A stretch of DNA of 64,000 nt, from NCBI RefSeq assembly GCF_001665875.1, contig NZ_LZTA01000014.1, positions 1-64,000 on the forward strand, written 5' to 3'. A program made the translations under genes and the position numbers. Position 1 is the stretch's first letter. Each line of letters begins with the position of its first letter. This stretch comes from Mycobacterium sp. 852002-40037_SCH5390672 (GTDB lineage: Bacteria > Actinomycetota > Actinomycetes > Mycobacteriales > Mycobacteriaceae). Below are positions 6,467-39,877 of the stretch, one piece after another. Under the pieces are notes generated by a model, which saw only the letters and a program-made list of their open reading frames with translations, had not been told where the DNA came from and made no database searches.

Positions 6467-6481
6467 GATAATACCATTCTC
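6467..6481 (-). promoter_or_regulatory. putative operator GAGAATGGTATTATC
   Basis: Read on the minus strand it matches GAGAAT-N3-ATTCTC at 11 of 12 positions. It lies about 170 bp upstream of the amidohydrolase operon start at 6300. The same palindrome occurs exactly at 8814-8828 and 39863-39877. The binding protein is unknown. Confidence 0.55.
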
Positions 6482-6513
6482 AGGATTGGCGACGGTGCCA
6501 TCCGCTCGGCTGG

Positions 6514-7431
6514 TTACTCCGACGGGCGGCCCGGTGGGCTAGTCGAAGGCCCGCCCACCGTGACGCCGGCGGCCCGCTCGAAGGGTTTGATCACCGTCGT
6601 GAAATCGGAATCGGGCCCTTCAACGCGGGCGAGTGCCTCCCACAACCGGCCGGTGGTCTCGGCAACCTCGGCGGGCACGCCGAGCGCTCGCGCTTCGTCG
6701 AGGTAAAGACGCACATCTTTGAGCATCAACGCGGTGGCAAAGCCGTAGTCGAAGGTGCGCGGCAGGATCGCGCGGGGGAACTTGTCGCGGCTCGCACTCG
6801 TGGCGCCCGACCCCGCATTGAGCACGTCGATCATCACCGATGGGTCGAGGCCGGCTTTGACGCCCATCACGACGACTTCCGCGGTGGCGACCAAGACGTT
6901 TGCCGCCAAGATGTTGTTTGCCAGCTTCATCGTCTGCGCCGATCCGGGCTGTTCACCGACGTACAGTGGGCGGCCCAAGGCTTCGAGTGCGGTTCGTACG
7001 ACATCGAATTCGGCGCGGCGGCCGGACACCATGAGCGCCAGCGTCCCCTTCTCGGCCCCGCCGACGCCCCCGCTGACCGGGCTGTCCATCGCCACGATGT
7101 TGCGCTCGGCCAGCAGGTCATGGATCCGCACCGCCATTTGGCTACCGACGGTGGACAAGTCGACGTAGCGCTTCACCCGCGCGCCTTTGATCACACCCAC
7201 CGCACCGGTTGCCACCTCGAGTGACGCGCCCGGCGTGGGAAGGCTGGCCATCACCGTTTCGGCGCGGTCGGCGACCTCTTTGGGCGACGACGCCGGGCGT
7301 GCCCCCAGCGCGACGACACGCTCGAGCGCCTCGCTACGGGTGTCGAAGGCGATGACGTCGTGCCCCTCCTGAATCAGGCGGCAGGCCATGGGACAGCCCA
7401 TGTTTCCCAGGCCGATGAATCCGACTTCCAT
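6514..7431 (-). CDS. NAD(P)-dependent beta-hydroxyacid dehydrogenase (3-hydroxyisobutyrate dehydrogenase family)
   Basis: A 305-residue cytoplasmic oxidoreductase. The N-terminal Rossmann motif is VGFIGLGNMGCPMA (3-16). The substrate-binding signature is DSPVSGGVGGAEKGTLA, and the conserved catalytic Lys lies in QTMKLANNIL followed by the helix of the C-terminal domain. Length fits the family (about 290-310). It probably oxidises a beta-hydroxyacid or reduces the matching semialdehyde. The preceding gene in the same direction (7440-7820) ends 8 bp upstream, so the two form an operon. Confidence 0.9.
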   Translation of the reverse strand: MEVGFIGLGNMGCPMACRLIQEGHDVIAFDTRSEALERVVALGARPASSPKEVADRAETVMASLPTPGASLEVATGAVGVIKGARVKRYVDLSTVGSQMAVRIHDLLAERNIVAMDSPVSGGVGGAEKGTLALMVSGRRAEFDVVRTALEALGRPLYVGEQPGSAQTMKLANNILAANVLVATAEVVVMGVKAGLDPSVMIDVLNAGSGATSASRDKFPRAILPRTFDYGFATALMLKDVRLYLDEARALGVPAEVAETTGRLWEALARVEGPDSDFTTVIKPFERAAGVTVGGPSTSPPGRPSE

Positions 7432-7439
7432 GACAGCCC

Positions 7440-7820
7440 CTAGTCCCGGTCCAGGTCGGCGAACGCCTCGCGCGCGATGCGAAAACTGTCGACGGCGGCC
7501 GGCACGCCGGCGTAAATGGCCACCTGCAGGAAGACCTCGCGGATCTCCTCGCGGGTGACACCGTTGGTCAGTGCCGCCTTGACGTGCGTACGCAATTCGT
7601 TGGGCCGGTTGAGCACCGAGATCATCGCCAGGTTGAGCATGCTGCGGGTCTTCCGCGGTAATTCCTCACGACCCCACACGGCACCCCAGCAGTACTCGGT
7701 GACGAGATCTTGCAGGGGACCGGTGAAGTCATCCGCGTCGGCCAACGCGCGAGTGACGTACTCCTCGCCCAGCACCTCGGAGCGGATGTGCAGCCCCCTG
7801 CGGTAGGTTTCGCGATCCAA
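7440..7820 (-). CDS. carboxymuconolactone decarboxylase family protein
   Basis: A 126-residue alpha-helical protein of the CMD/AhpD-like superfamily. Recognisable segments are FTGPLQDLVTEYCWGAVWG, LPRKTRSMLNLAMISVLNRPNELRTHVKAALTNG (cut here into the conserved R-x-R-S-L and H-x-x-A-L elements), VTREEIREVFLQVAIYAGVPAA and a C-terminal helix. Length and motif order fit 4-carboxymuconolactone decarboxylase-type enzymes, but many family members have other functions, so the specific reaction is uncertain. It forms a two-gene operon with the HIBADH-like enzyme. Confidence 0.85.
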   Translation of the reverse strand: MDRETYRRGLHIRSEVLGEEYVTRALADADDFTGPLQDLVTEYCWGAVWGREELPRKTRSMLNLAMISVLNRPNELRTHVKAALTNGVTREEIREVFLQVAIYAGVPAAVDSFRIAREAFADLDRD

Positions 7821-7832
7821 CGGACTCTCCCT

Positions 7833-8006
7833 TCAGTTCGGGGCAGCGGCCCTCGTTGGTGTCGTGCGCGCGCTGTCGAGGTGTCCGATTGCCTGAGCGC
7901 AGTCTTGCACCGTGGCCGCTGCGCTGGGTCTACAGTCGAGGATCAAATGGACCTGTCCACCCGTGTCCTCGTGCCCGTTCGGAGACTGCTGGAACTTGGC
8001 CGTCAT
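7833..8006 (-). CDS. possible small ORF (57 aa)
   Basis: An ATG-started reading frame begins MTAKFQQSPNGHEDTGG and ends ARTTPTRAAAPN. It lies entirely in the 264-bp gap between the CMD-like gene and the nitroreductase. Codon bias looks plausible, but there is no clear Shine-Dalgarno and no recognised domain, so it could be chance. The gap is otherwise unexplained. Confidence 0.25.
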   Translation of the reverse strand: MTAKFQQSPNGHEDTGGQVHLILDCRPSAAATVQDCAQAIGHLDSARTTPTRAAAPN

Positions 8007-8084
8007 CCAATTCCGCTGCAGCCGTTGGAGATACGCGTGATCGAGGTGCAGGTCTCGGGTAACTCTAGATGTTGAGGAGAAGCA

Positions 8085-8735: not shown

Positions 8736-8812
8736 GTCGCCGGGGGAATTCCGCTCGTCACGGGCATTCCGGTGACCCCATGCCCGGATTCAGAGATGAT
8801 TACTTCCGCAAC

Positions 8813-8829
8813 CGAGAATGGTATTCTCG
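8813..8829 (+). promoter_or_regulatory. perfect palindromic operator (GAGAATGGTATTCTC core)
   Basis: CGAGAAT-GGT-ATTCTCG is a 7-bp perfect inverted repeat around 3 bp. It ends 30 bp upstream of the FadE start codon at 8860, where a repressor would occlude the promoter. The same core recurs upstream of five other operons in this window. Confidence 0.65.
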
Positions 8830-8859
8830 CCCTGACAGTCACGACGAGAGGCGGCGCGG

Positions 8860-9858
8860 ATGCTGTTGGAGTTCGATGCTGATCAGCGACTGTGGCAGGA
8901 CACGGTGCGCGACGCTGTCGCAAAGCAGTGCCCGTCGTCGCTGGTGCGCAGCGTGGCCGAAGAGGGCGTCGACCCCAGTCCGCTGTGGAAATCGTATGTT
9001 GACCAGGGCTGGACCGAGCTCAGCGATTCCGACAGCGCCGTCGAGCTGACCATCGTGCTCGAAGAGCTCGGGCGCGCCACCGACCCCACCCCGTTCCTGG
9101 CCACGATGAGCCAGTTCGCACCGCTTGCCGCGGACCGGTTCGACCCACACCAGTCCGGCACCGCGGTCTACGGCGGGGTCGCGGCGCACCGCGACGCGCA
9201 GGGCTGGGTGCTGGAAGGCACGGCACGCCATGTGCTCGACGGGGATCGCGCGGATCGGCTCGCGGTGGTGACCGATGCCGGGGTGTTCCTCGTCGCGTCC
9301 AGTGAGGTGTCGGCCCGGCGCGCAGCGGTGTTCGACCCGGTGCTACACGTCGCCGACCTGTCCTTCGCGGAGATTCGGGTGCCCGACAGCGACCGGCTGA
9401 CCGTCGACGCGGAACGCGCTCATCATTTCGCCCTGACCGGCATGGCCATCACGATGGTCGGTGCCTGCCAACGCATCCTGGACTTGGTGCTCGAGCACGT
9501 GAGTAGCCGCCAGCAGTTCGGCGTGGCGATCGGCTCGTTCCAGGCCGTCCAGCACAAGGCCGCCGACATGCACGTCGCCGTGCAACGGGCGCGCGCGCTG
9601 GCCTACTTCGCCGCGTTGACGATCGCGGCGGACGATCCCCGCCGCCGGCTGGCGGCCGCCATGGCCAAGGCATCGGCGGGGGAATGCCAGTCGCTGGTGT
9701 TCCGGCACGGCCTACAGCTGCACGGCGCAATGGGATTCACCTGGGAGAACGACCTGCAGTTCGCGCTGAAACGAGCCAAGGCGGGTGAGCTGATGCTCGG
9801 TGGCGCGGCGGAACACCGGGCGCGGATCGCGGAGGAATACCGTGCAGCTGACTTTTGA
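8860..9858 (+). CDS. acyl-CoA dehydrogenase, short subunit of a FadE pair
   Basis: A 332-residue FadE. ACAD features in the C-terminal half are RQQFGVAIGSFQAVQHKAADMHV, the helix QSLVFRHGLQLHGAMGFTWENDLQFALKRAKAGE and a C-terminal EHRARIAEEY. The N-terminal domain is shortened compared with canonical FadE (about 380). It overlaps the next FadE gene by 17 nt. Adjacent overlapping FadE genes in mycobacteria are known to form alpha2beta2 heterotetramers acting on bulky (for example steroid side-chain) acyl-CoAs. The substrate here is unknown. Expression is probably controlled by the palindrome at 8813-8829. Confidence 0.9.
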   Translation: MLLEFDADQRLWQDTVRDAVAKQCPSSLVRSVAEEGVDPSPLWKSYVDQGWTELSDSDSAVELTIVLEELGRATDPTPFLATMSQFAPLAADRFDPHQSGTAVYGGVAAHRDAQGWVLEGTARHVLDGDRADRLAVVTDAGVFLVASSEVSARRAAVFDPVLHVADLSFAEIRVPDSDRLTVDAERAHHFALTGMAITMVGACQRILDLVLEHVSSRQQFGVAIGSFQAVQHKAADMHVAVQRARALAYFAALTIAADDPRRRLAAAMAKASAGECQSLVFRHGLQLHGAMGFTWENDLQFALKRAKAGELMLGGAAEHRARIAEEYRAADF

Positions 9859-11017
9859 TTCCGACGTCGAGGAGTTCCGGGCGGAGTTCTCGGCGTTCCT
9901 CGACGAAAACCTACCTCCCGCAAGCCAAACACTCGACCGGCCCAGGTCCGTCTCGCACATGCCGCAGTGGGCACGCGACTGGCAGCGGTTGTTATTCGAC
10001 AACGGCTGGCTGCTGCCCAGCCAGCCGCCGGAATTCGGTGGTCGCAACGCGACGGTCATTCAGCAGTTCGTCTACCTCGAGGAACTGAGCCGTCGCCGGA
10101 TCTACCACAGCTTCAACCCGCAGGGTGTGAATATCGTTGGGGCGTCGCTGTTGTCGTTCGGCAGCGACGAACAGAAGCGGCGCTGGGCGGTGCCGATCCT
10201 GCGGGCAGAGATCACCGCTTCACTGGGCATGAGCGAACCCAGCGCGGGCTCCGACCTGGCATCGTTACGCACTCGCGCGGTGCTCGACGGCGATCACTTC
10301 GTGGTCAATGGCCAGAAGGTGTGGACCTCGGGCGCCCACGATGCCGACGTCCTGTTGACGTTCGTCCGTACCAACCCGGATGCGCCGAAGCACAAGGGAA
10401 TCAGCGTGCTCGTCATCCCCACCGACACCCCGGGTCTGGTGCGCCGGCCGTTCCCGTCGATCTGCGGCGCCGATGATCTGGACTTCAACGAGGTGTTCTT
10501 CACCGACGTGCGGGTGCCCGCGGAGAATCTGGTCGGCGAGCTCGACCAGGGTTGGCGGGTGGCCAATGGATCGCTGGGGCACGAACGCACCATGATGTGG
10601 CTGGGTTTCGCCGATCGCCTCGAGAACATGATCGACGACTTTCATCCCAGCACCGAGGTTGAGCGCGACCAATACGCCAGCACGATCATGGACAAGCAGG
10701 CGCTGCGATTGTTGGGCTCGGCGGCTCTGGCCCGCGCTGCGCGCGGCGAAGATGACGTGGCCGCGATATCGGTGCTGAAGCTGCTCGGTTCCGAAGCGGA
10801 GCTGCGTGGGATGGAACTGGCGCTGACGTCCGCGGGATCCGATGGGCTCGTTCACCCGGGCCTGACGGGACCGTATGCGCACATGAACCTCGACCATTAC
10901 TTCGCCAGCTGGTTCGAGCGCTACGCCCGCAGCTTCTCCGGAACCATCGCCGGCGGCACCTCCGAAATCCAGCGCAACATCATCGCCCAGCGGGTACTCG
11001 GCCTCCCACGCGGCTAG
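9842..11017 (+). CDS. acyl-CoA dehydrogenase, long subunit of a FadE pair
   Basis: A 391-residue FadE starting at GTG (VQLTFDSDVEEF), 17 nt inside the preceding FadE gene. Motifs are ASLGMSEPSAGSDLASLRTRA (FAD/substrate), NGQKVWTSGAHDAD, and the C-terminal GTIAGGTSEIQRNIIAQRVLGLPRG, which carries the conserved TSEIQRNIIA cofactor segment absent from its partner. The N-terminus is very similar to the FadE cut by the left window edge, so the two are paralogs. It probably forms a heteromeric complex with the upstream gene product. It converges on the esterase gene with a 5-bp gap. Confidence 0.92.
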   Translation: MQLTFDSDVEEFRAEFSAFLDENLPPASQTLDRPRSVSHMPQWARDWQRLLFDNGWLLPSQPPEFGGRNATVIQQFVYLEELSRRRIYHSFNPQGVNIVGASLLSFGSDEQKRRWAVPILRAEITASLGMSEPSAGSDLASLRTRAVLDGDHFVVNGQKVWTSGAHDADVLLTFVRTNPDAPKHKGISVLVIPTDTPGLVRRPFPSICGADDLDFNEVFFTDVRVPAENLVGELDQGWRVANGSLGHERTMMWLGFADRLENMIDDFHPSTEVERDQYASTIMDKQALRLLGSAALARAARGEDDVAAISVLKLLGSEAELRGMELALTSAGSDGLVHPGLTGPYAHMNLDHYFASWFERYARSFSGTIAGGTSEIQRNIIAQRVLGLPRG

Positions 11018-14692: not shown

Positions 14693-16057
14693 CTAGTCGA
14701 TGACCGCGGCTTCCTTGCGTTCGGTAATCGGCCTGGCGAGCTCTTGCTCATCGCAGATGCGCTGCAGCTTCTCCAGCGTCTCGTCCAGGCCCGCGCCGAC
14801 CTTGCGGCCGGGCGTGAAGGTGGCCGGCAGCTTACGCATGCCCTGGATGACACCGATGGTCTCGTAGTGGACGGTCCCCTCCGGATCGCACTTGTAGTCG
14901 GGCATCCGATCGAGGACCGCGGTCAGCATGGATTTGAATACGGTGCGCGCCACGTTCGACCCGATACACCTGTGGACCCCCAGCCCGAAGCTGAAGTGCC
15001 GGTTGCCTTTACGGTCGAGGACGATCTTGTCCGGGTCGCGAAAGACCGACGGGTCGCGGTTGGCCATCGCCCACGAAATCCACAGGCGCTCACCCTCTTT
15101 GAACTGGGTGCCGTCGAGTTCGACGTCGTCGGAAAACGTCCGGCCATCACCGGGCGCCGGGGTGAAGAAGCGCAGGAACTCCTCGGTCGCGGGGTCGATC
15201 AGCGTTTTGCGCTCATCGCTGAGCAGCTGTCGTTGATCGGGGTGCTCCGAGAGCCATTCCAGCGAGTGCGCGGTCAGGGCGGTCGTGGTGTCGAAGCCGC
15301 CGCCGATGACCAGACCGAGATTGCCCAGGATTTCCAGTTCCGGGGCCGGCTCGCCTTCGATGCGCATCTCGAGCAGACCGTTCACGATTCCGGGCCGCGG
15401 GTTTGCGCGGATCTCGATCATGCTGTTGACCATGTCGAGCCCCATCTCCCGGTGCATCGCGGTGACGCGCTCGATGTCGGGGGAGTGCTCGGGCGTGTAC
15501 ACCGCGGCGTGTACCGGCTCGCTGTACATGTTCCACTTCTTCAGCGGGATGCCCAGCATTGCCAGCGTGAAGACGGCGGGCACGATATTGGCGAGGTCGT
15601 CGACGAAGTCGATGTGACCACCCTCGATCTTCTCGTCGAGGCAGGCGCGCGTCACGTCGTCGATGAACGGTTCCCAGCGCTTGATCGCCGCCGGCGACAG
15701 ATACGGGTTGAGCACGGTTCGGTAGGTACGGTGTTCGGGGTCGTCCATTTCCAGGATCCCGCCGCGCACCGCACTGACGCGGCTGGCCGTGGGTATCGAA
15801 ATGCCTTTGTAGCCGCGGCGTTCACCGTGGATGTCGTGATCGTTGGAGACGGCGGGGCAGCGGGCCAGCTCGAAGACCTCGTGGCTGCCGGCCGCAACCC
15901 AATGACCGCCATAGGTTTCGGTCCAGGCCATGGGGCACTTGGCGTGCATCTCTTCGGTGATCGCCTTGAACTTCGACCGGTACTCGGAGGAATGCCGGTC
16001 GAAGTGGTACCGGTTCTTTTTGCGGTCGCTGTCATTCACGACGTCGTCGACACTCAA
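14693..16057 (-). CDS. cytochrome P450
   Basis: A 454-residue soluble P450. The I-helix is IGGGFDTTTA (251-260), the K-helix ExxR is Glu293-Arg296 (EEFLRFF), and the heme loop is FSFGLGVHRCIGSNVA with Cys364 as axial ligand. It probably receives electrons from the 3Fe-4S ferredoxin encoded 47 bp upstream. The C-terminal extension of about 40 residues after TFTPGRKV is charged. It belongs to an operon with that ferredoxin and the SDR at 16359. The substrate is unknown; terpene, steroid or fatty acid hydroxylation are all possible. Confidence 0.93.
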   Translation of the reverse strand: MSVDDVVNDSDRKKNRYHFDRHSSEYRSKFKAITEEMHAKCPMAWTETYGGHWVAAGSHEVFELARCPAVSNDHDIHGERRGYKGISIPTASRVSAVRGGILEMDDPEHRTYRTVLNPYLSPAAIKRWEPFIDDVTRACLDEKIEGGHIDFVDDLANIVPAVFTLAMLGIPLKKWNMYSEPVHAAVYTPEHSPDIERVTAMHREMGLDMVNSMIEIRANPRPGIVNGLLEMRIEGEPAPELEILGNLGLVIGGGFDTTTALTAHSLEWLSEHPDQRQLLSDERKTLIDPATEEFLRFFTPAPGDGRTFSDDVELDGTQFKEGERLWISWAMANRDPSVFRDPDKIVLDRKGNRHFSFGLGVHRCIGSNVARTVFKSMLTAVLDRMPDYKCDPEGTVHYETIGVIQGMRKLPATFTPGRKVGAGLDETLEKLQRICDEQELARPITERKEAAVID

Positions 16058-16104
16058 CGCTCTGTCTCCCTAAGTGTTTCGGTAGCCAAGGACCCGGTAC
16101 CGGC

Positions 16105-16305
16105 TCAGGCGTCGTCGGTGATCATGATCGCCTGCTCCGGGCAGGACTGCGCGGCTTCACGCACTTGGTCCTCGCGATCGGCGGGCACCACCTCGTCGAC
16201 CGCCGACGAACTGCCGTCGATGTCGCTGAGCTGAAACGATTCCGGAGCGATCATCGCGCACAGGGTATGGCCCTGGCACCGTTCCGAATCCACCCAGACC
16301 TTCAC
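16105..16305 (-). CDS. 3Fe-4S ferredoxin, P450 partner
   Basis: A 66-residue protein with a GTG start (VKVWVDSERCQGHTLC) preceded by GAGAGGGG. CQGHTLC (C-x2-H-x2-C) plus QSCPEQAI is the [3Fe-4S] pattern of ferredoxins that reduce mycobacterial CYPs. It is directly upstream of the P450 at 14693 (47-bp gap) and downstream of the SDR gene (53 bp), so one operon is likely. Confidence 0.93.
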   Translation of the reverse strand: MKVWVDSERCQGHTLCAMIAPESFQLSDIDGSSSAVDEVVPADREDQVREAAQSCPEQAIMITDDA

Positions 16306-16358
16306 GCGTTTTCCCCTCTCACACTGGTTACCGGGCACCGCTGACCAATCGCCACCGC

Positions 16359-17060
16359 TCAGGTGTTGCGGCCGCCGTTGACGCCCAGGATCTGGCCGGT
16401 GATGTAGCCGGCTTCCTCGGACACCAAAAACGCACAGGCCGCCGCGATGTCCTCGGGCGTGCCCATCCGGCGCACCGGTGTCCGCGCGATGGTCTCGTCG
16501 ATATCGCCGAGGAATCCGTTCTTCTCGGCGGCGCGCAGCATCGGGGTGTCGATGAAGCCCGGCGGCACCGCGTTGACCGTGATGCCCTTGGGCCCGTACT
16601 CGAGTGCGAGCGACTTCGTCAGGCCGTTGACCGCCGACTTGGCCGCCACGTAGTGACTCATGTAGGGCGCACCGGAATGCGTGCTCGACGACGAGATGTT
16701 CACGATCCGTCCCCACCCCGCCTCGACCATGTCGGGGAGCACCGCCTGGACGGTATGGAAGACGCCGTTGAGATTGACGTCGATCACCCGGTACCAGTCC
16801 TCGAAGCTGATGTTGTTGAACTTCTTGAACCCGTCGAGGCCGGCCGCGTTGACCAGCACAGTCACCGGCCCGAGCTGGGCGCGGATGGCCGACAGCGCCG
16901 CATCCAGCTGCGACCGGTCGGTGACGTCGGCAGTGAAAGCGAAATCGGCTTCCGCCGGCCGCAGGTCGATTGAGGCGACGTTCAAACCGTCGGCGCGCAG
17001 GCGCTGCACGACGGCAAGGCCGATGCCGGATCCGCCACCGGTGACTACAGCAGTCTTCAT
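16359..17060 (-). CDS. short-chain dehydrogenase/reductase (FabG-like)
   Basis: A 233-residue SDR. It has the Rossmann motif TGGGSGIGLA (near residue 7), the NAG-type motif VNAAGLDG, catalytic Ser in VNISSSSTH and YxxxK as YVAAK. The substrate-side PPGFIDTPM and C-terminal YITGQILGVNGGRNT are typical of SDR enzymes. It should oxidise or reduce a hydroxyl/keto group using NAD(P). It is probably the first gene of the SDR-ferredoxin-P450 operon. The 281-bp divergent region to the aldehyde dehydrogenase contains two GAGAAT-type elements. Confidence 0.92.
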   Translation of the reverse strand: MKTAVVTGGGSGIGLAVVQRLRADGLNVASIDLRPAEADFAFTADVTDRSQLDAALSAIRAQLGPVTVLVNAAGLDGFKKFNNISFEDWYRVIDVNLNGVFHTVQAVLPDMVEAGWGRIVNISSSSTHSGAPYMSHYVAAKSAVNGLTKSLALEYGPKGITVNAVPPGFIDTPMLRAAEKNGFLGDIDETIARTPVRRMGTPEDIAAACAFLVSEEAGYITGQILGVNGGRNT

Positions 17061-17120: not shown

Positions 17121-17135
17121 GAGAACCTTACTCTC
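17121..17135 (-). promoter_or_regulatory. putative degenerate operator near the SDR gene
   Basis: GAGAACCTTACTCTC matches GAGAAT-N3-ATTCTC at 10 of 12 positions. It sits 61 bp upstream of the SDR start codon. Inferred member of the same operator family. Confidence 0.45.
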
Positions 17136-17297: not shown

Positions 17298-17312
17298 GAG
17301 AATGAAATTATC
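17298..17312 (+). promoter_or_regulatory. putative operator GAGAATGAAATTATC
   Basis: Matches GAGAAT-N3-ATTCTC at 11 of 12 positions and ends 29 bp before the aldehyde dehydrogenase start at 17342. This is almost the same spacing as at the FadE pair. Confidence 0.6.
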
Positions 17313-17341: not shown

Positions 17342-18868
17342 ATGCCTGCCCAGGACACGGCAGAGCCCGCGGCGCAGACCATCGCGGATGCCGCGCCTGA
17401 GCCCCACCTCGACCGCCGTCTGTTGATCGATGGCCGGCTGGTCGGCGCCGAAAAGTCGTTCCCCTCGATCAATCCCGCGACGGGTGCGGTCATCGGGCAT
17501 GCGCCGGAGGCCGGCGGCCAGGAGGCCCAGACGGCGATCGCGGCGGCCCGGCGTGCGTTCGACACCACCAGCTGGCCCACCGACGTGGAGCTGCGGATCC
17601 GCTGCCTCGACCAGTTGCACCAGGCGCTCGTCGACCACGCAGACGAGCTGCGTGAACTCACCATCGCCGAAGTCGGCGCCACCCGCGCGCTGACCCAGGG
17701 CGCTCAGCTCGACGAGCCGATCGGCATCGTGCGCTTCTACGCGGACCTGCTGCGCACCTATCAGTTCTCCGAAGACCTCGGCGAAAAAGAATCGCGGGGC
17801 ATGCGTCACCACCGCTGGGTGGAAAAGGAAGCCGCCGGCGTGGTCGGCGCCATCATCGCCTACAACTATCCCAACCAGCTCGCACTGGCGAAGCTCGCTC
17901 CGGCGCTGGCAGCCGGATGCACCGTGGTGCTCAAGGGCGCCCCGGACACGCCACTGGTCACCTTGGCACTGGGCGAGTTGATCGCCAATCACACCGACAT
18001 TCCCGCCGGGGTGGTGAACGTGCTCAGTTCGTCGGATCCGGCGTCCGGCGTCGCGCTGACCACCAGCCCGGACGTCGACGTCATCACCTTCACCGGATCG
18101 ACCGCGGTCGGGCGCAAGATCATGGCCGCCGCGAGCGACACCGTCAAGCGCGTCTTCCTGGAGTTGGGCGGCAAGTCGGCGGCCATCATGCTCGACGACG
18201 CCGACTTCGCCAACGCCGCCCTGTTCGCGGCCTTCAGCATGGTCACCCACGCGGGCCAGGGGTGTGCGCTCACGTCCCGGCTGCTGGTGCCCAAGTCCCA
18301 CCACGACGAGATCGTCGAGCTGATCGCGCAGAACTTCGCCAAGGTGCGACACGGCGACCCGGCCGACCCCAAGACCTACATGGGACCGCTGATCAACGAG
18401 CAACAGCGGGACAAGGTCGACGGCATGGTCCAGCGCGCCGTGGCGGCCGGGGCAACCCTGGTCACCGGCGGTAAGCGACTCGATCCCGGCTACTTCTATG
18501 CACCGACGCTGCTGACCAATGTCGATCCCGACAGCGAGATCGCGCAGGACGAGATCTTCGGCCCTGTCCTCGTGGTGATCGCGTTCGACGATGACGACGA
18601 TGCCGTGCGCATCGCCAACAACTCGATCTACGGACTGGCGGGCGCGGTGTTCAGCCGCGATCAGGACCGCGCGCTCGCCGTGGCGCGCCGGATCCGGGCC
18701 GGATCCTTCTCCATCAACGGCGGCAACTACTTCGGCGCCGACACCCCCTTCGGGGGTTTCAAGCAGTCGGGCGTGGGTCGCGAGATGGGTGTGGCCGGGC
18801 TCGAGGAGTTCCTGGAGAGCAAGACCTTTGCCGTGCCAGCCGTCTCAGCGAGAGGAGCCGGTGCATGA
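17342..18868 (+). CDS. NAD(P)-dependent aldehyde dehydrogenase
   Basis: A 508-residue ALDH. Motifs are GAIIAYNYPNQLALAKLAPALAAGCTVVLKG (cofactor region), FTGSTAVGRKIM, catalytic Glu in VFLELGGKSAAIMLDDADF and catalytic Cys in HAGQGCALTSRLLV. EIFGPVLVV and GGFKQSGVGREMG complete the family pattern. The first 18 residues are a weakly conserved acidic extension. It should oxidise an aldehyde to the acid. The stop overlaps the CoA-transferase start by 4 nt, suggesting that the acid is activated by transfer of CoA. An operator lies just upstream. Confidence 0.94.
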   Translation: MPAQDTAEPAAQTIADAAPEPHLDRRLLIDGRLVGAEKSFPSINPATGAVIGHAPEAGGQEAQTAIAAARRAFDTTSWPTDVELRIRCLDQLHQALVDHADELRELTIAEVGATRALTQGAQLDEPIGIVRFYADLLRTYQFSEDLGEKESRGMRHHRWVEKEAAGVVGAIIAYNYPNQLALAKLAPALAAGCTVVLKGAPDTPLVTLALGELIANHTDIPAGVVNVLSSSDPASGVALTTSPDVDVITFTGSTAVGRKIMAAASDTVKRVFLELGGKSAAIMLDDADFANAALFAAFSMVTHAGQGCALTSRLLVPKSHHDEIVELIAQNFAKVRHGDPADPKTYMGPLINEQQRDKVDGMVQRAVAAGATLVTGGKRLDPGYFYAPTLLTNVDPDSEIAQDEIFGPVLVVIAFDDDDDAVRIANNSIYGLAGAVFSRDQDRALAVARRIRAGSFSINGGNYFGADTPFGGFKQSGVGREMGVAGLEEFLESKTFAVPAVSARGAGA

Positions 18869-20070
18869 GGCCGCTCGAAGGCATCCGCATCCTTGAAGTC
18901 GCCATGTACGGGTTCGTCCCGTCGGCGGGTGCCGTGCTTGCCGAATGGGGCGCGGACGTGGTCAAGGTCGAGCACGCGGTGACCGGTGACCCGCAACGGG
19001 GGCTGCGGCAGACCGGGATGCTGCGCGTCGAAGGCGATCCCAACCCCAACATCGAGCACGCCAACCGCGGCAAGCGCAGCATCGGGCTGGACATGTCGGT
19101 GCCCGGAGGCAAGGAAGTGCTCTACGAGTTGGCCCGCCGCGCCGATGTGTTCCTGACCAGTTTCCTGCCCGATCACCGGAAGAAGTTCGGCATCGACGTC
19201 GACGACATCAGGGCGGTCAACCCGGACATCGTCTACGCGCGGGGGAGTGCGCTAGGCCCGCGCGGCGAAGAGTCGACCAAGGGCGGCTACGACATGACGG
19301 CCTTCTGGTGCCGGGCCGGAACCGCCGCCACTATTACTCCCGCCGGCATGCCGGGCATGATCGCGCCGCCCGGACCGGCGTATGGCGACACCATCTCGGG
19401 CACCAACCTCGCCGGGGGCATCGCGGCCGCGCTGCTCAAGCGTGAGCGCACCGGCGAACCGTCCGTCGTCGATGTGTCGCTGCTGGGCAGTGGCCTTTGG
19501 TCGCTGGGCCACACGGTCGCGCTGACAAGGCATCTGAACCAGCGGCTGGAGTCGCCGCCGCCCGGTGTGCACGGCGCGCCCAACAACCCACTGGTGGGCC
19601 TGTACACGACGTCCGACGGCCGCTACATCTCCTTCGTGATGATGCAGCCCACCAAGTTCTGGGCCGACGTGTGCCGCCATGTCGACCTGCCCGAGCTGGC
19701 CGATGACCCACGGTTCGACACGGTGGAGAACATCGCGGCCAACACCGCCGACGCGGTGGAACTGCTGACCAAGGCCATCGCCGCCCGCACACTGGTCGAG
19801 TGGAGCGAACGTTTCGCCACGCTCTCCGGGCCGTGGGCACCGGTGCAGGACACCCTGCAAGCAGCCGACGACGCGCAGATCCGCTCGAACGAGTACATGG
19901 TGCGGGCGGGTGAACTCGAGCTGGTGGCCAACCCGGTACAGTTCGACGTCGCAGCGCCACAGACCGGGCCGGCTCCCGGGTTCGCTGAGCAGACCGACGA
20001 GATCCTGATGGAGCTCGGCCTCGACTGGGACCGCATCATCGAACTCAAGACGGCCGGTGCCGTCACGTGA
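18865..20070 (+). CDS. CoA-transferase family III (CaiB/BaiF)
   Basis: A 401-residue class III CoA-transferase. N-terminal GIRILEVAMYGFVPSAGAVLAEWGADVVKVEH and NRGKRSIGLDMSVPGGKE are characteristic. The catalytic Asp candidate is in GGYDMTAFWCRAG, followed by SGTNLAGGIAAALLKRERTGEPSVVDVSLLG. It moves CoA between acids without ATP. It is translationally coupled (ATGA) to the aldehyde dehydrogenase, so it probably activates that enzyme's product. The 387 bp that follow precede the mce operon. Confidence 0.93.
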   Translation: MRPLEGIRILEVAMYGFVPSAGAVLAEWGADVVKVEHAVTGDPQRGLRQTGMLRVEGDPNPNIEHANRGKRSIGLDMSVPGGKEVLYELARRADVFLTSFLPDHRKKFGIDVDDIRAVNPDIVYARGSALGPRGEESTKGGYDMTAFWCRAGTAATITPAGMPGMIAPPGPAYGDTISGTNLAGGIAAALLKRERTGEPSVVDVSLLGSGLWSLGHTVALTRHLNQRLESPPPGVHGAPNNPLVGLYTTSDGRYISFVMMQPTKFWADVCRHVDLPELADDPRFDTVENIAANTADAVELLTKAIAARTLVEWSERFATLSGPWAPVQDTLQAADDAQIRSNEYMVRAGELELVANPVQFDVAAPQTGPAPGFAEQTDEILMELGLDWDRIIELKTAGAVT

Positions 20071-20457: not shown

Positions 20458-21276
20458 ATGGCAACCAAGGGAGCAAACCACTGGTCAGCAGGATTGCCGC
20501 AGCTGAAACTGAAATGGGACTTCTCGGGGCCCATGCAAGCGGTCGGAGCCTTGTTCGCAATGTCGGCCGACGCGGTCAAGTTCGCGTTCCGCCGGCCGTT
20601 CCAGTGGCGGGAGTTCTTGGAGCAATCCTGGTTTGTCGCACGGGTGTCGCTGGCTCCCACCCTGTTGGTAGCGATCCCGTTTACCGTCCTCGTCAGCTTC
20701 ACCCTCAACATCCTCTTGCGCGAACTGGGCGCGGCGGATCTGTCCGGTGCGGGGGCCGCGTTCGGTGCAGTCACCCAGCTCGGCCCGCTGGTCACCGTTT
20801 TGATCGTTGCGGGCGCCGGTGCTACGGCAATGTGCGCCGACCTGGGGGCGCGAACGATTCGCGAAGAAATCGACGCGATGGAAGTGCTGGGCATCAACCC
20901 GGTGCAACGGCTGGTGACACCGCGAATGCTGGCTTCCGGATTGGTGGCGTTTTTGCTCAACAGCCTGGTTGTCATCATCGGCGTCCTTGGCGGCTACGTC
21001 TTTTCGGTGTTTGTGCAAGACGTCAACCCTGGTGCGTTCGCCGCGGGTATCACCTTGCTCACCGGCGTGCCCGAGGTGATTATTTCGTGCGTCAAGGCAG
21101 CCCTTTTCGGCCTCATCGCCGGATTGGTCGCCTGTTATCGGGGCCTGTCGATCACCGGCGGGGGCGCTAAAGCTGTTGGCAACGCGGTGAACGAAACCGT
21201 GGTTTACGCCTTCATGTCCCTGTTCGTCGTCAACGTGGTGGTCACCGCGGTCGGCATCAAGATGACGGCGAAGTAG
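20458..21276 (+). CDS. yrbEA: YrbEA-type Mce ABC-transporter permease (MlaE family)
   Basis: A 272-residue integral membrane protein with five to six hydrophobic segments. The MlaE/YrbE signature is present around GAGATAMCADLGARTIREEIDAMEVLGINPVQRLVTPRMLA, the EExDA-LG cytoplasmic loop. It is the first of the two permeases of the Mce lipid importer, paired with YrbEB, and is energised by an MceG/Mkl ATPase that is not encoded here. It starts the yrbEA-yrbEB-mceABCDEF operon. The gap to yrbEB is 9 bp. Which numbered mce locus this is cannot be decided from the sequence alone. Confidence 0.95.
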   Translation: MATKGANHWSAGLPQLKLKWDFSGPMQAVGALFAMSADAVKFAFRRPFQWREFLEQSWFVARVSLAPTLLVAIPFTVLVSFTLNILLRELGAADLSGAGAAFGAVTQLGPLVTVLIVAGAGATAMCADLGARTIREEIDAMEVLGINPVQRLVTPRMLASGLVAFLLNSLVVIIGVLGGYVFSVFVQDVNPGAFAAGITLLTGVPEVIISCVKAALFGLIAGLVACYRGLSITGGGAKAVGNAVNETVVYAFMSLFVVNVVVTAVGIKMTAK

Positions 21277-21285
21277 GGACTGCGA

Positions 21286-22131: not shown

Positions 22132-22150
22132 CAGAGGAGGTGGAACGGCA

Positions 22151-26962: not shown

Positions 26963-28278
26963 GGGCCCGGGTAGCGGCTAAGCGGGTATTCGCCACCGGC
27001 TGTTGCGTGGTGTTGACGTCGACGGGATGCGCATTCCACGGCCTGAATTCGCTACCCCTGCCCGGTGCGGTCGGACGGGGGCCGGGGGCCAACATCTACC
27101 ATGTCGAGCTCCCGAATGTCGGGACGATGGAGTCGAATTCGCCGGTGATGGTCGACGACGTCGTCGTCGGCAGTGTCGGTGCGATGAGGGTGCAAGGCTG
27201 GCACGCCGACGTCGAGATCTCGGTCAAGCGCGATGTGGTGGTCCCGGCCAACGTGCTAGCCACCGTCGGTCAGACCAGCCTGCTGGGCTCGATGCATGTG
27301 GAGCTCAATACTCCGCCGGGCCAGCAGGGAAGCGGACGGCTGCAGCCGGGCGCCACCATCCCGCTGAGCCGGTCATCCGCCTACCCGTCGACCGAGCAGA
27401 CGCTGTCGTCGCTGGGCGCGGTCGTCAACGGCGGTGGACTGGGACAGATTGGGGAGGTCATCCACAATTTCTCGGCCGCCCTGTCCGGGCACGAGGGCGC
27501 GGTGCGTGATCTGATCACCCGCCTGGACACGTTCGTCGGAACTCTGGACGACCAGAAAGACAACATCGTCGCCTCCATCCAGGCGCTGAATCGGCTGTCG
27601 GCCACCTTCGCCGACCAACGCGACGTTCTCACCGATGCGCTGCACAAGATACCGCCCGCGCTCGAAGTGTTGGTCAGGGAGCGGCCTCGTCTGACGGCCG
27701 CCCTGGACCACCTTCGCGTGTTCAGCAACACCGCCACCCGGCTGGTCAACGATTCCCAGGCCGACCTGGTCAAGAATCTTAAAAACCTGGAGCCGACTAT
27801 CAAAGCGCTCGCCGACGTCGGACCGGATTTCGGCGCGGCCATCGCGGCGGCGTTCGTGTTCCCGTTCACCCAGAACTTCGTCGACCGAGCGGTCCGAGGC
27901 GACTTCTTCAACCTGCATTTCGATTTCGACATAACGATTCCACGGCTCAAGAAGGGATTGTTCCTGGGGACCCACTGGGGGCAGCTGGATATGCCCGTGC
28001 CACCGGTGCCCGGGGACCCGTATCGCTTCAATTACACGCTCGATCCTTTGCATAACCCGCTGAGGCCACCGTGGATCGATCCCAACGCGTTGCCGCTGCC
28101 CCCACCGCCGCCGGGTGCGGTACCGGGACCTTCGTCGGCTTACGGCCCGTTGCCTGGGCCTCCGCCGGGTGCGGCTCCGCTGCCTGGTCCGCCGCCGGGT
28201 GCGGCCCTGGTGCCTGATGCGGGTCTTGGTCAAACGCCGGCGCCCGCCGACGCGCCTCCGACGGGAGCGGGTGGATAG
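26959..28278 (+). CDS. mceE: Mce family lipoprotein MceE (LprN-like)
   Basis: A 439-residue protein. A short signal peptide ends in a lipobox-like LTSTGC near residue 24, consistent with the MceE subunit of other mce operons being a lipoprotein. The Mce domain (NVGTMESNSPVMVDDVVVGSV...) is followed by a helical region and a repeated Pro/Gly-rich tail of PGPPPGA units (about 380-430). It abuts mceF directly. The lipobox is not perfect: Ser is at -3 where Leu is usual. Confidence 0.93.
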   Translation: MRARVAAKRVFATGCCVVLTSTGCAFHGLNSLPLPGAVGRGPGANIYHVELPNVGTMESNSPVMVDDVVVGSVGAMRVQGWHADVEISVKRDVVVPANVLATVGQTSLLGSMHVELNTPPGQQGSGRLQPGATIPLSRSSAYPSTEQTLSSLGAVVNGGGLGQIGEVIHNFSAALSGHEGAVRDLITRLDTFVGTLDDQKDNIVASIQALNRLSATFADQRDVLTDALHKIPPALEVLVRERPRLTAALDHLRVFSNTATRLVNDSQADLVKNLKNLEPTIKALADVGPDFGAAIAAAFVFPFTQNFVDRAVRGDFFNLHFDFDITIPRLKKGLFLGTHWGQLDMPVPPVPGDPYRFNYTLDPLHNPLRPPWIDPNALPLPPPPPGAVPGPSSAYGPLPGPPPGAAPLPGPPPGAALVPDAGLGQTPAPADAPPTGAGG

Positions 28279-30033
28279 ATGCTGACGCGCTTCGTTCGTA
28301 TCCAGCTAGGGATCTTCGCGGTTGTCGGGACTATTGGCATCATCGCAATGGTCCTCTTCTACATTCAAGCGCCGACCCTGCTGGGCATCGGCCGGATGAC
28401 GGTGACGCTGGAGCTGCCGGCCACCGGCGGCCTGTACCGGTTTTCGAACGTGACCTACCGTGGGGTTCAGCTCGGCAAGGTCACCTCGGTGGGTTTGACG
28501 CCGACCGGCGCGAAAGCGACTCTGTCGCTTAGCACTTCACCGAAGGTCCCGGCAGACCTGACAGCGCAGGTGCTCAGTGTCTCCGCGGTGGGTGAACAGT
28601 ATGTGGATCTGCGGCCCAAGACCAATTCGGCGCCCTACCTGCACGACGGCTCAGTTATCGCCGTGCGCGACACGACGATTCCGCAGCCGGTCGGGCCGAT
28701 GCTCGAGCAGCTCAACGCGTTGGTCGGCAGCATCCCGAAGACCAAACTCGGCCAATTGCTCGACGAGACGTTCCAGGGCTTCAACGGCTCCGGTTACGAC
28801 CTGGGGTCACTGATCGATTCCTCGAAGACGCTGTCCCGCGACGCCAACGGCGTCGTCGATCGCACCCGAGCCCTCACCGAAGACACCGGGCCGCTGCTGG
28901 ATACCCAGGCGCGCACCACCGATTCGATCAGAACGTGGGCGCGTAGCTTCGCCGGCATCTCGGATGTGTTGGTGAACAACGATTCTCACTTTCGCACTAT
29001 CTTGGAGAAAGGTCCTGACGCGGCGAACGAGGCGTCCCGGCTTCTCGAACAAATCAAACCGACGCTGCCGGTGTTGCTCGCCAACCTGACCACTATCGGG
29101 CAGATCGGCGTCACCTACCACCCCTCGATCGAGCAGCTGCTGGTGTTGCTGCCGTCGGGGGTTGCTATCGAGCAGGCCGCTCAGGGTGAAAACCATCCCG
29201 ACGGTAGGGCTTACGGCGACTTCGCCGCCACGGTCGACGATCCGCCTATTTGCACGGTCGGCTTCATGCCACCCAACACGTGGCGTTCCCCGGACGACCT
29301 CACCGACATCGACACACCGGACGGGTTGTATTGCAAACTCCCGCAGGATTCACCGATCGGAGTTCGCGGTGCCCGCAACTATCCCTGCATGGGTCACCCG
29401 GGTAAGCGCGCACCGACCGTCGAAATCTGCAACAGCGACAAGCCGTACATGCCGCTGGCGATGCGCCAGCACACCCTCGGTCCCTATCCGCTGGATCCGA
29501 ATCTGCTAGCCCAGGGCGTCCCGCCCGATGACCGGATCACCACCAATGACAGGATCTTCGGCCCGGTGCAGGGAACGCCGCTACCGCCGGGGGCGGTGCC
29601 GCGCGGCGCACCGGCGGGGCCCCGCGGGGAAAATCCACCGCCGGGCACGGCTGGGGCCGCTGTTCCCCCCGTGCCGTCGTCGGGACCAGTGCTGGCGCCG
29701 ATGTCGAGAATGTCGGCGGACCTTCCGCCCATAGCGCCACTCGATGTCCCTGCGGCGGGAGAACTTCCCTCGCCGCCCGCCGCGCCGGCCCCGCCTCCAG
29801 CCCCGACCATTCCTCCCGATCCCGCGACGGCCGACACGGCCGGCGGCGGAGGACCCCAGGCTGCGCCAAGCGCGTTCGGCGCCAACGCATCTAAGCCCGC
29901 GCCCTCGGTGGTGGTGGCAAAGTACGATCCGCGCACCGGTCGTTATGTCGGTCCGGACGGGAAGTTGTACCAGCAGTCGGATCTCGTTGCTCCGAAAGCG
30001 CCCAGGACATGGAAGGACATGCTTCCCACCTGA
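28279..30033 (+). CDS. mceF: Mce family protein MceF
   Basis: A 584-residue last Mce subunit, starting MLTRFVRIQLGIFAVVG one base after the mceE stop. Anchor about 9-28; Mce domain with VTYRGVQLGKVTSVGL and VSAVGEQYVDLRPK. The conserved MceF C-terminal region follows (DGLYCKLPQDSPIGVRGARNYPCM, cysteine-containing), then a long Pro/Ala/Gly-rich tail. It ends with YDPRTGRYVGPDGKLYQQSDL, the usual MceF terminus. Convergent with the secreted-protein gene, 56 bp away. Confidence 0.95.
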   Translation: MLTRFVRIQLGIFAVVGTIGIIAMVLFYIQAPTLLGIGRMTVTLELPATGGLYRFSNVTYRGVQLGKVTSVGLTPTGAKATLSLSTSPKVPADLTAQVLSVSAVGEQYVDLRPKTNSAPYLHDGSVIAVRDTTIPQPVGPMLEQLNALVGSIPKTKLGQLLDETFQGFNGSGYDLGSLIDSSKTLSRDANGVVDRTRALTEDTGPLLDTQARTTDSIRTWARSFAGISDVLVNNDSHFRTILEKGPDAANEASRLLEQIKPTLPVLLANLTTIGQIGVTYHPSIEQLLVLLPSGVAIEQAAQGENHPDGRAYGDFAATVDDPPICTVGFMPPNTWRSPDDLTDIDTPDGLYCKLPQDSPIGVRGARNYPCMGHPGKRAPTVEICNSDKPYMPLAMRQHTLGPYPLDPNLLAQGVPPDDRITTNDRIFGPVQGTPLPPGAVPRGAPAGPRGENPPPGTAGAAVPPVPSSGPVLAPMSRMSADLPPIAPLDVPAAGELPSPPAAPAPPPAPTIPPDPATADTAGGGGPQAAPSAFGANASKPAPSVVVAKYDPRTGRYVGPDGKLYQQSDLVAPKAPRTWKDMLPT

Positions 30034-32313: not shown

Positions 32314-32338
32314 AGAAGATCTTCTCCAACTAGGAGAA
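32314..32338 (+). promoter_or_regulatory. overlapping inverted repeats covering the Shine-Dalgarno
   Basis: AGAAGATCTTCT (32314-32325) is a perfect palindrome. TTCTCC (32322-32327) can also pair with GGAGAA (32333-32338), which contains the only good Shine-Dalgarno of the next gene. The two pairings share TTCT, so they exclude one another. Confidence 0.35.
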
Positions 32339-32350
32339 TTTTCTTTTCAG

Positions 32351-35950: not shown

Positions 35951-35968
35951 CGCTTGAGAGTGCCGTTC

Positions 35969-38178: not shown

Positions 38179-38531
38179 AGTCCCGGCGTGCCGGGCTCCG
38201 TGCCCGTGCTCGCCACCACCATCGCGTAATCGTCGGGATTCGACATGTCCAGATCGAAGCCCCACGGCTTGCCCGGGGCGAGATCGACGTCGACGTGCGG
38301 CGTGAACGAGTAGGGATTGTGGCTGTAATCGGAAAATTTTTCCGGCTGGTGGTCCAGGTAATAGATGGAGGTATAGATCGGATTCTGCGCGGTGACCGTG
38401 TACTTGACGTGATGCATCACGGGGTCGTCGGCGTGTGCCCGTCCGCTTCCCGCCAGCACGCCCGCTGCCGTTAATAGACAAGCCAACGACACGACAGGAC
38501 CGAGGCCCATCACTGTCTTCATGGTGGTCAT
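38094..38531 (-). CDS. secreted MmpS-C-terminal-like protein
   Basis: A 145-residue protein starting MTTMKTVMGLGPVVSLACLLTAAGVLAGSGRAHA with a Sec signal peptide (GGAGGAG precedes the start). The mature domain resembles the beta-sandwich of MmpS proteins: VKYTVTAQNP, IYYLDHQ, PGKPWGFDL, GLHCDLSVDGAVVVSK, GVLCSL with two cysteines, but without the MmpS membrane helix. It is coupled by a 4-nt overlap to the enoyl-CoA hydratase upstream, a strange pairing. The assignment to MmpS is by pattern only. It overlaps the TetR gene end by 85 nt. Confidence 0.7.
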   Translation of the reverse strand: MTTMKTVMGLGPVVSLACLLTAAGVLAGSGRAHADDPVMHHVKYTVTAQNPIYTSIYYLDHQPEKFSDYSHNPYSFTPHVDVDLAPGKPWGFDLDMSNPDDYAMVVASTGTEPGTPGLHCDLSVDGAVVVSKDGPKGVLCSLRNW

Positions 38532-39283
38532 GACGCTCCTCCGGCTGCCGGGCGCGGTTTGGTGTTGCGGCTCATGAGCCGTTCTGCGGCCTGCCAGTGT
38601 GGGTCGGCAACCCATAATCGTGCAAAGGATGCTATCGCCTCATCAGGAGAAACTCCGCGAATTACCCGCTTTATCTCCGTCGCCGGGCGGCGGGCCAGCG
38701 ACCTCGCGATCGCTCGCCATCCTTCCTCGGGCGAGTCGAAGACGTCGCGGGGCAACACCCGGTCCACCAGCCCGATCCGCTCGGCGTCGAACGCGCTAAG
38801 GGCGGTTCCCGAACCGGCCAAGAGCAGCGCCTTGCTCTTTCCGACCAGCGCGGCCAACCGCTCGGCTCCTCCCCAGGCCGGCATGATCTCCAGCTGCACT
38901 TGGTTGAAGGCGATCTTGATGTCATCGGCCGCCACCCGGATGTCGGCGGCGACAGCGACTTCGGCGCCACCGCCGAACGCGTGGCCATTGAGCGCGGCGA
39001 TGACGGGCGCGGGGAAGTCCGCCAGCTGGTCGCAGATGGACCGCATCCGCCGCGCCATCGCTGCGGCGTCCTCTTCGGTCCGCAGCGCGCTCAGCTCCTT
39101 GAGGTCACCGCCCGATACGAAGGCGTGCTCACCGGCCCCCTTGATGACCAGCGCGTCGGCTCCCTCCGCCGCATCGAGCGCTTTCTCGAGCTGTTCCATG
39201 GTGTCCGGCGCGATGGCATTGCGTGCGTGGGGGCGATCGATGGTGAGTACCGCCAGCCCATCGTCGATCTCTAGGTCCACCAT
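38528..39283 (-). CDS. enoyl-CoA hydratase/isomerase family protein
   Basis: A 251-residue crotonase-fold protein: VLTIDRPHARNAIAPDT, AFVSGGDLKELSAL (oxyanion region), AALNGHAFGGGAEVAVAADIRVA, and MPAWGGAERLAALVG around the position of the second catalytic Glu. The position equivalent to the second Glu reads MPAWGGAERL. Other crotonases show PExGxxPG here, so the exact reaction (hydration, isomerisation, dehydrogenation) is open. It is the first gene of the operon with the MmpS-like gene, and two overlapping GAGAAT-type elements lie just upstream. Confidence 0.85.
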   Translation of the reverse strand: MVDLEIDDGLAVLTIDRPHARNAIAPDTMEQLEKALDAAEGADALVIKGAGEHAFVSGGDLKELSALRTEEDAAAMARRMRSICDQLADFPAPVIAALNGHAFGGGAEVAVAADIRVAADDIKIAFNQVQLEIMPAWGGAERLAALVGKSKALLLAGSGTALSAFDAERIGLVDRVLPRDVFDSPEEGWRAIARSLARRPATEIKRVIRGVSPDEAIASFARLWVADPHWQAAERLMSRNTKPRPAAGGAS

Positions 39284-39311
39284 GCGTTATCGCTCCTCGG
39301 ACAAGAAACCC

Positions 39312-39348
39312 GATATTGGCATTCTCTTTTCGCGAGAATAACATCATC
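39312..39348 (-). promoter_or_regulatory. two adjoining degenerate GAGAAT-N3-ATTCTC elements
   Basis: GATATTGGCATTCTC (39312-39326) and GAGAATAACATCATC (39334-39348) each keep one exact half-site and about four of six bases in the other. The exact halves also form ATTCTC-N7-GAGAAT. They are 29 to 65 bp upstream of the enoyl-CoA hydratase gene and also close to the divergent lipoprotein gene. Confidence 0.45.
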
Positions 39349-39392
39349 GCTGCAGGCCCAAGAACTTTCGTCAGTGAGGATGGAGGTGACCC

Positions 39393-39812
39393 GTGCGAAA
39401 CCGAATCATGGCCGTTGCTGCGGCCCTGACCGTTGCCCTGGTTGGGGCATGCACTTCACGGCCACCAACCCATATCTCGAGCACGGCATCAGTGACCGTC
39501 AACGGTAACGATCGGACTTTCCACATCGTGAAGTGCAGTCAGCGGGAGTGGACCCGGACGATCGACATCGGTAGCGATTTTGCCGGAGCCAAGCTCATCA
39601 TCGACGAGAGTGCGCAACCGGCGACAGCCGAGTCCGTGCGCATCCGGAACCTGGGTGGGTTCAGCGGGATGTACTCCCGCGGTGGGGACGGTAACGCCGA
39701 CATGAGCATGACCGGTGACAAATTCACCCTCAGCGGCACCGCCAACGGCTACAAGACCGACAAACCCGGCGAACCGGCTACCGCCACATTCAAGATCTTC
39801 GTGACGTGCTGA
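39393..39812 (+). CDS. LpqH-family (19-kDa antigen-like) lipoprotein
   Basis: A 139-residue lipoprotein with a GTG start (VRNRIMAVAAALTVALVGACTS) and lipobox VGAC; the lipidated cysteine is near residue 20. The mature part contains NGNDRTFHIVKCSQREW and GGFSGMYSRGGDGNADMSMTGDKFTLSGTANGY, the pattern of the mycobacterial 19-kDa lipoprotein antigen family, with a C-terminal FVTC pairing with the first Cys. An envelope protein of unknown role. It is divergent from the enoyl-CoA hydratase and 87 bp upstream of the amidohydrolase. Confidence 0.88.
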   Translation: MRNRIMAVAAALTVALVGACTSRPPTHISSTASVTVNGNDRTFHIVKCSQREWTRTIDIGSDFAGAKLIIDESAQPATAESVRIRNLGGFSGMYSRGGDGNADMSMTGDKFTLSGTANGYKTDKPGEPATATFKIFVTC

Positions 39813-39862
39813 CCACGCGGAACGGGGGATGGGCGGGGCCACGTTGCGATTGGGCGCCTGTA

Positions 39863-39877
39863 GAGAATAGTATTCTC
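39863..39877 (+). promoter_or_regulatory. perfect palindromic operator GAGAATAGTATTCTC
   Basis: A 6-bp perfect inverted repeat around AGT, ending 22 bp before the amidohydrolase start at 39900. It overlaps the region where a promoter and ribosome-binding site (GAAGGAGG) lie. Same core as at 8813-8829. Confidence 0.65.

Follow-up and report, generated by a model that had tools for sequence, protein, structure and literature searches.

Which protein reads the 15-bp palindrome GAGAAT-N3-ATTCTC, which stands ahead of catabolic operons in Mycobacterium sp. 852002-40037_SCH5390672, and what is the resulting system for? The window analyzed here covers the initial 64 kb of contig C14 (NZ_LZTA01000014.1; 186,484 bases) from a genome of 5.38 Mb in 141 contigs. 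An earlier note on this DNA had linked at least six operons through the palindrome into one regulon. We find it very probable that GAGAAT-N3-ATTCTC is the operator of a TetR-type protein, P0001, which on the sequence evidence would repress not only its own promoter but also about 100 kb of clustered lipid-catabolic genes until an intermediate of the pathway releases it; binding, repression and release are the parts that we infer. The proposal of one regulon across the operons is strongly supported by genome-wide enrichment of the site, by its presence at orthologous operons and by its co-occurrence with a single tetR gene, and the window operons would belong to it, with other parts of the regulon lying outside the window.

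Results

The palindrome and its probable regulator

The copies that the note had listed in the window are all present, with the positions and match counts that it gave. Across the whole genome there are eight exact copies, against about 0.05 predicted by base composition, and four more with one mismatch, which gives 12 sites at one mismatch or fewer, whereas the reversed pattern, used as a control at the same tolerance, occurs 0 times. Eleven of the 12 are intergenic according to the gene calls of this analysis, although the regions concerned are about 90% coding; the sole site inside a called gene (C102:130077, one mismatch) lies in the first codons of a phenolic acid decarboxylase gene. Contig C14 carries four of the sites, all of them in the window, contig C102 carries six, and C1 and C107 one each.

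The note had seen no regulator gene beside the element. On C102 exact palindromes (C102:167747 and 168602) stand on both sides of a gene at C102:167829-168479, minus strand, outside the window, which encodes the 216-residue TetR protein P0001. Its TetR_N domain (PF00440) scores 31.6 bits against a cut-off of 24, and its AlphaFold model, with a mean predicted local distance difference test score (pLDDT) of 87, is nearly all helix and places TetR structures at the top of the Foldseek ranking. Because Foldseek and PDB searches with P0001 returned generic TetR matches only (EthR2, Rv0078, YvdT and FadR, at about 20% identity), they do not indicate a ligand class.

We then consider the P0001 loci of named genomes, of which the best 80 of 378 found were compared; these are at least 88% identical to P0001 and all are titled Mycobacterium except for one Mycolicibacterium, the closest among them coming from mycobacteria around Mycobacterium colombiense (94-96% identical). 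At 79 of these 80 loci tetR is preceded by an exact palindrome, which in 72 cases falls in the 120-129 bp bin, and at 71 the 500 bp downstream of the gene contain a copy with no more than one mismatch. The presumed recognition-helix stretch, QSLRSFYLQF, is identical in 12 orthologues; it reads QSLRSFYLLF in a 60% identical paralogue and TSLRSFYQHF in homologues with 33-36% identity from three genomes that lack sites (G156, G009 and G098).

Co-occurrence of regulator and sites

Across 198 genomes from the genus, the best match to P0001 is bimodal, with 163 genomes at E ≤1.5e-81, 35 at ≥8.6e-28 and none between. Among the 163 genomes that have the regulator, 158 have at least two exact sites (median 7), two have one and three have none; among the 35 that lack it, 32 have no exact site, two have one and one has eight (Fisher p of about 1e-31, a value that ignores kinship between the genomes). 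Two of the three genomes with TetR and no exact site, G056 and G178, have a one-mismatch palindrome upstream of tetR. The clean presence or absence of regulator and sites among species makes this a good case for studying regulon decay.

The same pattern extends beyond the genus. Our order-wide set of 298 genomes includes 243 from outside the family, which have at most two exact sites each (230 have none), and 20 from the same family but outside the genus. Five of these 20, belonging to two genera, have a P0001 orthologue (78-79% identical) and contain 10, 9, 9, 7 and 2 exact sites, in each case with one located 121-130 bp upstream of tetR, and the 15 without an orthologue have 0 or 1. In three of the five (L198, L199 and L200, from another genus) there is an additional TetR with 58-60% identity to P0001 and, about 142 bp upstream of it, an exact palindrome; this is apparently a duplicated regulator keeping the same operator.

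Predicted operators at orthologous operons

To follow the sites into relatives, we compared the neighbors of 43 exact sites from six genomes (G034, G020, G090, G108, G101 and G151). Conservation upstream of orthologous operons, which the note had proposed as support, was found: for 34 of the 43 sites at least one neighbor gene is at least 60% identical to a gene of the present cluster or of the operon on C1. An exact site adjoins the tetR orthologue in five of the six relatives (not G151), FadD C102:124889 with its divergent ferredoxin has a site-bearing orthologue in five, the site of amidohydrolase C102:176544 recurs in five (not G020) and that of the APH-family gene C1:83948 in two.

In the window, the exact operator GAGAATGGTATTCTC at 8814..8828 lies 31 bp ahead of the FadE start codon at 8860, and an exact site precedes the orthologous FadE in five relatives (G034, G020, G090, G108 and G101; not G151). 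The second exact operator, GAGAATAGTATTCTC at 39863..39877, lies 22 bp ahead of the amidohydrolase start codon at 39900 and has an exact counterpart before the orthologue in 6/6 relatives. The operator GAGAATGAAATTATC at 17298..17312, with one mismatch, lies 29 bp ahead of the start codon of an aldehyde dehydrogenase (ALDH) gene at 17342; these three gaps agree with the range given in the note. The fourth copy, at 6467..6481 with one mismatch, is 166 bp upstream of the amidohydrolase gene 5200-6300 on the minus strand. Four relatives have one site common to the divergent orthologues of this amidohydrolase and of FadE 8860, and in the window, where three genes (6514-8735) separate the two, there is a copy on each side (6467 and 8814).

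The weaker copies were followed at orthologues as well. At 12 loci with ALDH orthologues 73-92% identical to that at 17342, an equivalent of the 17298 site has at most two mismatches at nine and at most three at all 12, whereas none of 18 promoters belonging to other ALDH genes in the same genomes (52-66% identical) has anything better than four mismatches. The weak operator at 17121..17135 (two mismatches), 60 bp upstream of the short-chain dehydrogenase/reductase (SDR) gene 16359-17060 on the minus strand, is retained with one or two mismatches in 11 of the 12 orthologous regions and is missing from L227. Twin weak operators at 39312..39326 and 39334..39348, with two mismatches each and 22 bp from one to the other, precede the enoyl-CoA hydratase gene 38528-39283 (minus strand), the first by 28 bp; both twins are present at 12/12 orthologues, with two to three mismatches each and a spacing that is invariably 22 bp. 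Two more copies with two mismatches, which the note did not list, occur in the window at 32171-32185 and 32334-32348. When up to three mismatches are allowed, the window contains 15 copies against 12.1 expected from shuffles, and 23 of 100 shuffles reach 15. As this loose count is chance-like, weak copies need other evidence; those with two mismatches at 17121 and 39312/39334 are not credible by count and are supported because they are kept at orthologues.

A possible mechanism and its alternatives

A dimer of P0001 would bind the palindrome, and in the absence of substrate the dimers bound 22-31 bp before the three window start codons would block the initiation of transcription, while P0001 would also limit its own expression. 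A CoA thioester or acid intermediate could act as the inducer, releasing P0001 so that the genes for import, activation and oxidation are expressed together. Where weak partners lie 22 bp away (two helical turns), as in the promoters of tetR and of enoyl-CoA hydratase, two dimers may sit side by side. The encoded route would consist of Mce import, CoA ligation, dehydrogenation by heteromeric FadE, hydration and thiolysis, with oxidation by P450 and Rieske enzymes.

In addition to the kinship that the association statistic ignores, several observations weigh against this reading. Among genomes counted as lacking the regulator, G148 (a 700-contig assembly, 93% complete) has eight sites and no P0001 match better than 5.5e-20, G044 has one site and no TetR match at 1e-15, and G070 (73% complete) has one site and TetR as fragments only. 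Among those that have it, G026 has one exact site elsewhere and near tetR nothing better than three mismatches, G063 has only one site, and G089 (3.2 Mb) has no exact site and a three-mismatch remnant before tetR. L125 (M. tilburgii) is the single locus of the 80 without an upstream site, none of the four exact sites in G151 adjoins tetR, and 9/43 exact sites of the six relatives are without a neighbor at 60% among the genes compared (cluster and C1 operon). Other regulator genes lie in the cluster too; of those scanned, three are of the TetR type and one is an IclR gene. Finally, a partner 22 bp from the site is not general. With up to five mismatches it was found in 33 of 91 contexts whose flanks are at most 60% identical, against a shuffled mean of 1.9, but when sorted by operon (at most four mismatches) it is present at 80/83 tetR promoters, 2/7 FadD promoters and 0/77 and 0/31 at two other operons. 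We therefore dropped it as a general operator feature and regard it as promoter specific, because it occurs at tetR promoters and a few others, such as the enoyl-CoA hydratase twin (12 of 12), and not at most other operons.

In G089 (L174; 92% complete) the tetR orthologue is open and 90% identical but the assembly has no exact operator, and its regulon is possibly in decay.

P0001 could bind the same sites and yet activate, or both activate and repress, instead of simply repressing, which we consider unlikely. Partner sites in some promoters are compatible with such a role, as are sites far from a start codon, at 166 bp for 6467 and at 348 bp for C102:176544, although the latter has a divergent neighbor 22 bp away. 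However, 32 of the 43 exact sites in the six relatives lie 17-50 bp from the nearest start codon, where a dimer would block RNA polymerase, and most characterized TetR regulators are repressors.

It is less probable still, and in our view quite improbable, that another regulator binds the palindrome and that P0001 is a mere target. Candidates within the cluster are the TetR proteins of C102:155613, C102:181317 and window position 37459 and the IclR protein of C102:137568. A further candidate is the TetR of C1:81243, which has a site upstream of it, and in G020 the IclR orthologue is separated from its neighbor by an exact site. Against this, P0001 is the only one of these regulators in the present genome with exact sites on both sides, and no site with two mismatches or fewer lies directly upstream of the TetR genes C102:155613, C102:181317 and 37459. 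The upstream site of P0001 is also kept at the named loci and in other genera, and its presence predicts sites across the 198 genomes, a co-occurrence computed for P0001 only.

That the palindromes are a repeat of another kind (mobile repeat, terminator hairpin or DNA uptake motif) or arose by chance, as the loose window count taken by itself would allow, is contradicted by their conservation at orthologues and by their tracking of one tetR gene, and flanks that vary from site to site and the scarcity of sites outside the family leave this explanation with next to no probability.

Relation to known systems

The regulation by P0001 proposed here resembles that by KstR2, which acts on cholesterol catabolism in mycobacteria and Rhodococcus: the latter is also an autoregulated TetR-type protein, found in mycobacteria and rhodococci, with a palindrome in divergent lipid-catabolic promoters, and its motif was likewise predicted initially from promoter regions of orthologous regulator genes (accessible part of PMC3068626). 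The KstR2 motif is, however, AnCAAGnnCTTGnT, and KstR2 controls 15 genes from three promoters (same part of PMC3068626), compared with eight exact sites here. The note was thus right to separate the element from the KstR2 consensus, and on the same grounds we rejected P0001 as a KstR2; it matches KstR2 structures only at E 0.003.

KstR provides the example of a large TetR regulon for lipid degradation in mycobacteria (PMC1995591, in the part accessible), and its motif is a 14-bp palindrome (PMC3068626, likewise). Membership of P0001 in the KstR family was rejected, the NCBIfam model NF033703 giving 21.9 bits against a cut-off of 280. The KstR regulon reportedly includes the mce4 importer. Mce3R is another TetR-type repressor of lipid genes, and the cluster described here also has an Mce operon, but Mce3R has a double TetR motif and a non-palindromic target (accessible part of PMC11667970), whereas P0001 has a single motif and palindromic sites. 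Mce3R membership was rejected on the basis of domain number and size, P0001 having 216 aa and one TetR_N domain, compared with 406 aa for Mce3R chain 9b7y.

TetR-type FadR proteins are acyl-CoA-responsive repressors. They are found in Bacillus and Thermus, and B. halodurans FadR is the best sequence relative of P0001 among solved structures (33 bits). P0001 nevertheless falls below the NCBIfam FadR cut-off (NF053878, 26.6 bits against 200), with about 20% identity in the structural alignment, and was not accepted as a FadR. FasR, ScbR and BetI were rejected in the same way (28.3, 41.4 and 27.2 bits against cut-offs of 330, 150 and 201).

The note had called the regulon uncharacterized, which agrees with the open-access literature that we searched, a scope that most subscription papers fall outside: the motif string was not found there, nor was such a regulon described in any title or opening of an abstract. 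PMC3388012 describes, in its accessible part, one new palindrome, TAC-N6-GTA, and a word search of its text, in which the motif logos are images, did not find GAGAAT; a word search of the accessible part of PMC4810484 for amidohydrolase and unknown cluster gave no match. Within this literature the regulon is apparently undescribed so far and of a familiar type. A regulator, an operator and target operons are now attached to a large, widely conserved and unexplained mycobacterial catabolic cluster.

Extent and content of the cluster

The note had described the operons as scattered, which does not hold for most of them. In G034, the genes orthologous to those of the C102 and window parts share one chromosome (2,323,910-2,422,736), and the distance from tetR to the FadE site (2,360,391 to 2,394,343) is 34 kb, compared with 33.8 kb expected for a C102 end abutting the C14 start. 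This contiguity and the matching distance indicate that most operons belong to a single cluster of roughly 100 kb, with the regulator merely off the window; the P0001 gene probably lies just past the contig break at window base 1. The two sites on C1 and C107 are outside the cluster contigs.

At the start of the window, two Amidohydro_2 amidohydrolase genes (5200-6300 and 4025-5170) and a gene for a Rieske [2Fe-2S] protein (3625..4023) lie on the minus strand, followed on the plus strand by the paired FadE genes at 8860..11017 (small subunit 8860-9858, large subunit 9842-11017; all Pfam assignments). The minus-strand group at 14693..17060 comprises the SDR gene, an open reading frame (ORF) of 66 aa and a cytochrome P450 gene (14693-16057). 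It is followed on the plus strand by the genes for ALDH and a CaiB-type CoA-transferase (17342..20070) and by a YrbE/MlaE permease pair with six Mce genes (20458..30033; domains MlaE, MlaD and Mce4_CUP1). Despite a 387-bp gap after 20070, the Mce operon is perhaps read from the 17298 operator. Further along are the enoyl-CoA hydratase/isomerase gene (38528..39283, minus strand) and, at 39900..43205 on the plus strand, the genes for an amidohydrolase, a FadD3-family acyl-CoA ligase (41116) and a 208-aa protein that matches no Pfam family.

Over the whole cluster we found paired FadE genes (8860/9842, C102:126282/127174 and C102:170351/171185), acyl-CoA ligases (41116, which scores 751.5 bits against the FadD3-family cut-off of 657, and C102:124889), five Amidohydro_2 proteins, hydratases, a thiolase and a further thiolase of another make-up, four P450s, a Rieske oxygenase, Rieske/2Fe-2S proteins, the aldehyde dehydrogenase, the CaiB transferase and the YrbE/Mce operon. 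The further thiolase, at C102:187695, has a ChsH2-type OB domain and lies beside a two-mismatch site. Several of the catabolic genes do not adjoin a site. The domain types looked for in a steroid-catabolic cluster, namely those of heteromeric FadE pairs, a FadD3-type ligase, a ChsH2/Ltp-like thiolase and an Mce importer, are represented. Among the steroid-named NCBIfam models searched, a set that did not include KstD, HsaC and IpdAB, FadD3 alone passed, and those for IpdE2, steroid thiolase and lipid-transfer protein failed; IpdE2 is the best NCBIfam match of the small FadE (8860), at 124 bits against a cut-off of 450. The best solved relatives of the large FadE (9842) are Thermomonospora curvata Tcur3483 and chain A of 4x28, both of which we take to be heteromeric enzymes, the latter presumably acting on the cholesterol side chain in mycobacteria. 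For amidohydrolase 39900 the best solved relative is 4dzi, with weaker matches to PtmU3 and DitZ, which we assume to be linked to diterpenoids.

As far as sequence can suggest, this content perhaps fits a bulky cyclic lipid, for instance a steroid- or terpenoid-like one; of all steps, the substrate is the least certain. It is quite possible, though short of probable, that mycobacteria have, next to the KstR and KstR2 regulons, a third one for lipid catabolism that spans the genus. It would comprise one TetR repressor, a dedicated Mce importer and some 100 kb of pathway genes for a polycyclic isoprenoid (steroid- or terpenoid-like) so far not named as a mycobacterial growth substrate, and it would be kept in most species and elsewhere lost along with its operators. 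A compound that frees P0001 from GAGAAT-N3-ATTCTC would reveal the inducer and so give a lead on the substrate, something that cannot be read from gene content alone.

The cluster also contains an aromatic-type catabolic run beside the IclR regulator (L018:4063-14013, equivalent to C102:137568-147518), with a FAD_binding_3 hydroxylase, a LigB ring-cleavage dioxygenase, a FAD_binding_2 protein, a luciferase-like monooxygenase and hydrolases; the exact palindrome between the IclR orthologue and this run in G020 does not occur in the present genome. The phenolic acid decarboxylase (L017:16560-17078, C102:130065-130583) matches PF05870 at 245 bits. The exact site C102:130696 is followed by a 73-aa ORF (L017:17264-17485) that is faintly like the start of a thiolase, and then by a gene for a MeaB-like GTPase (L017:17493-18380), the pair spanning C102:130769-131885.

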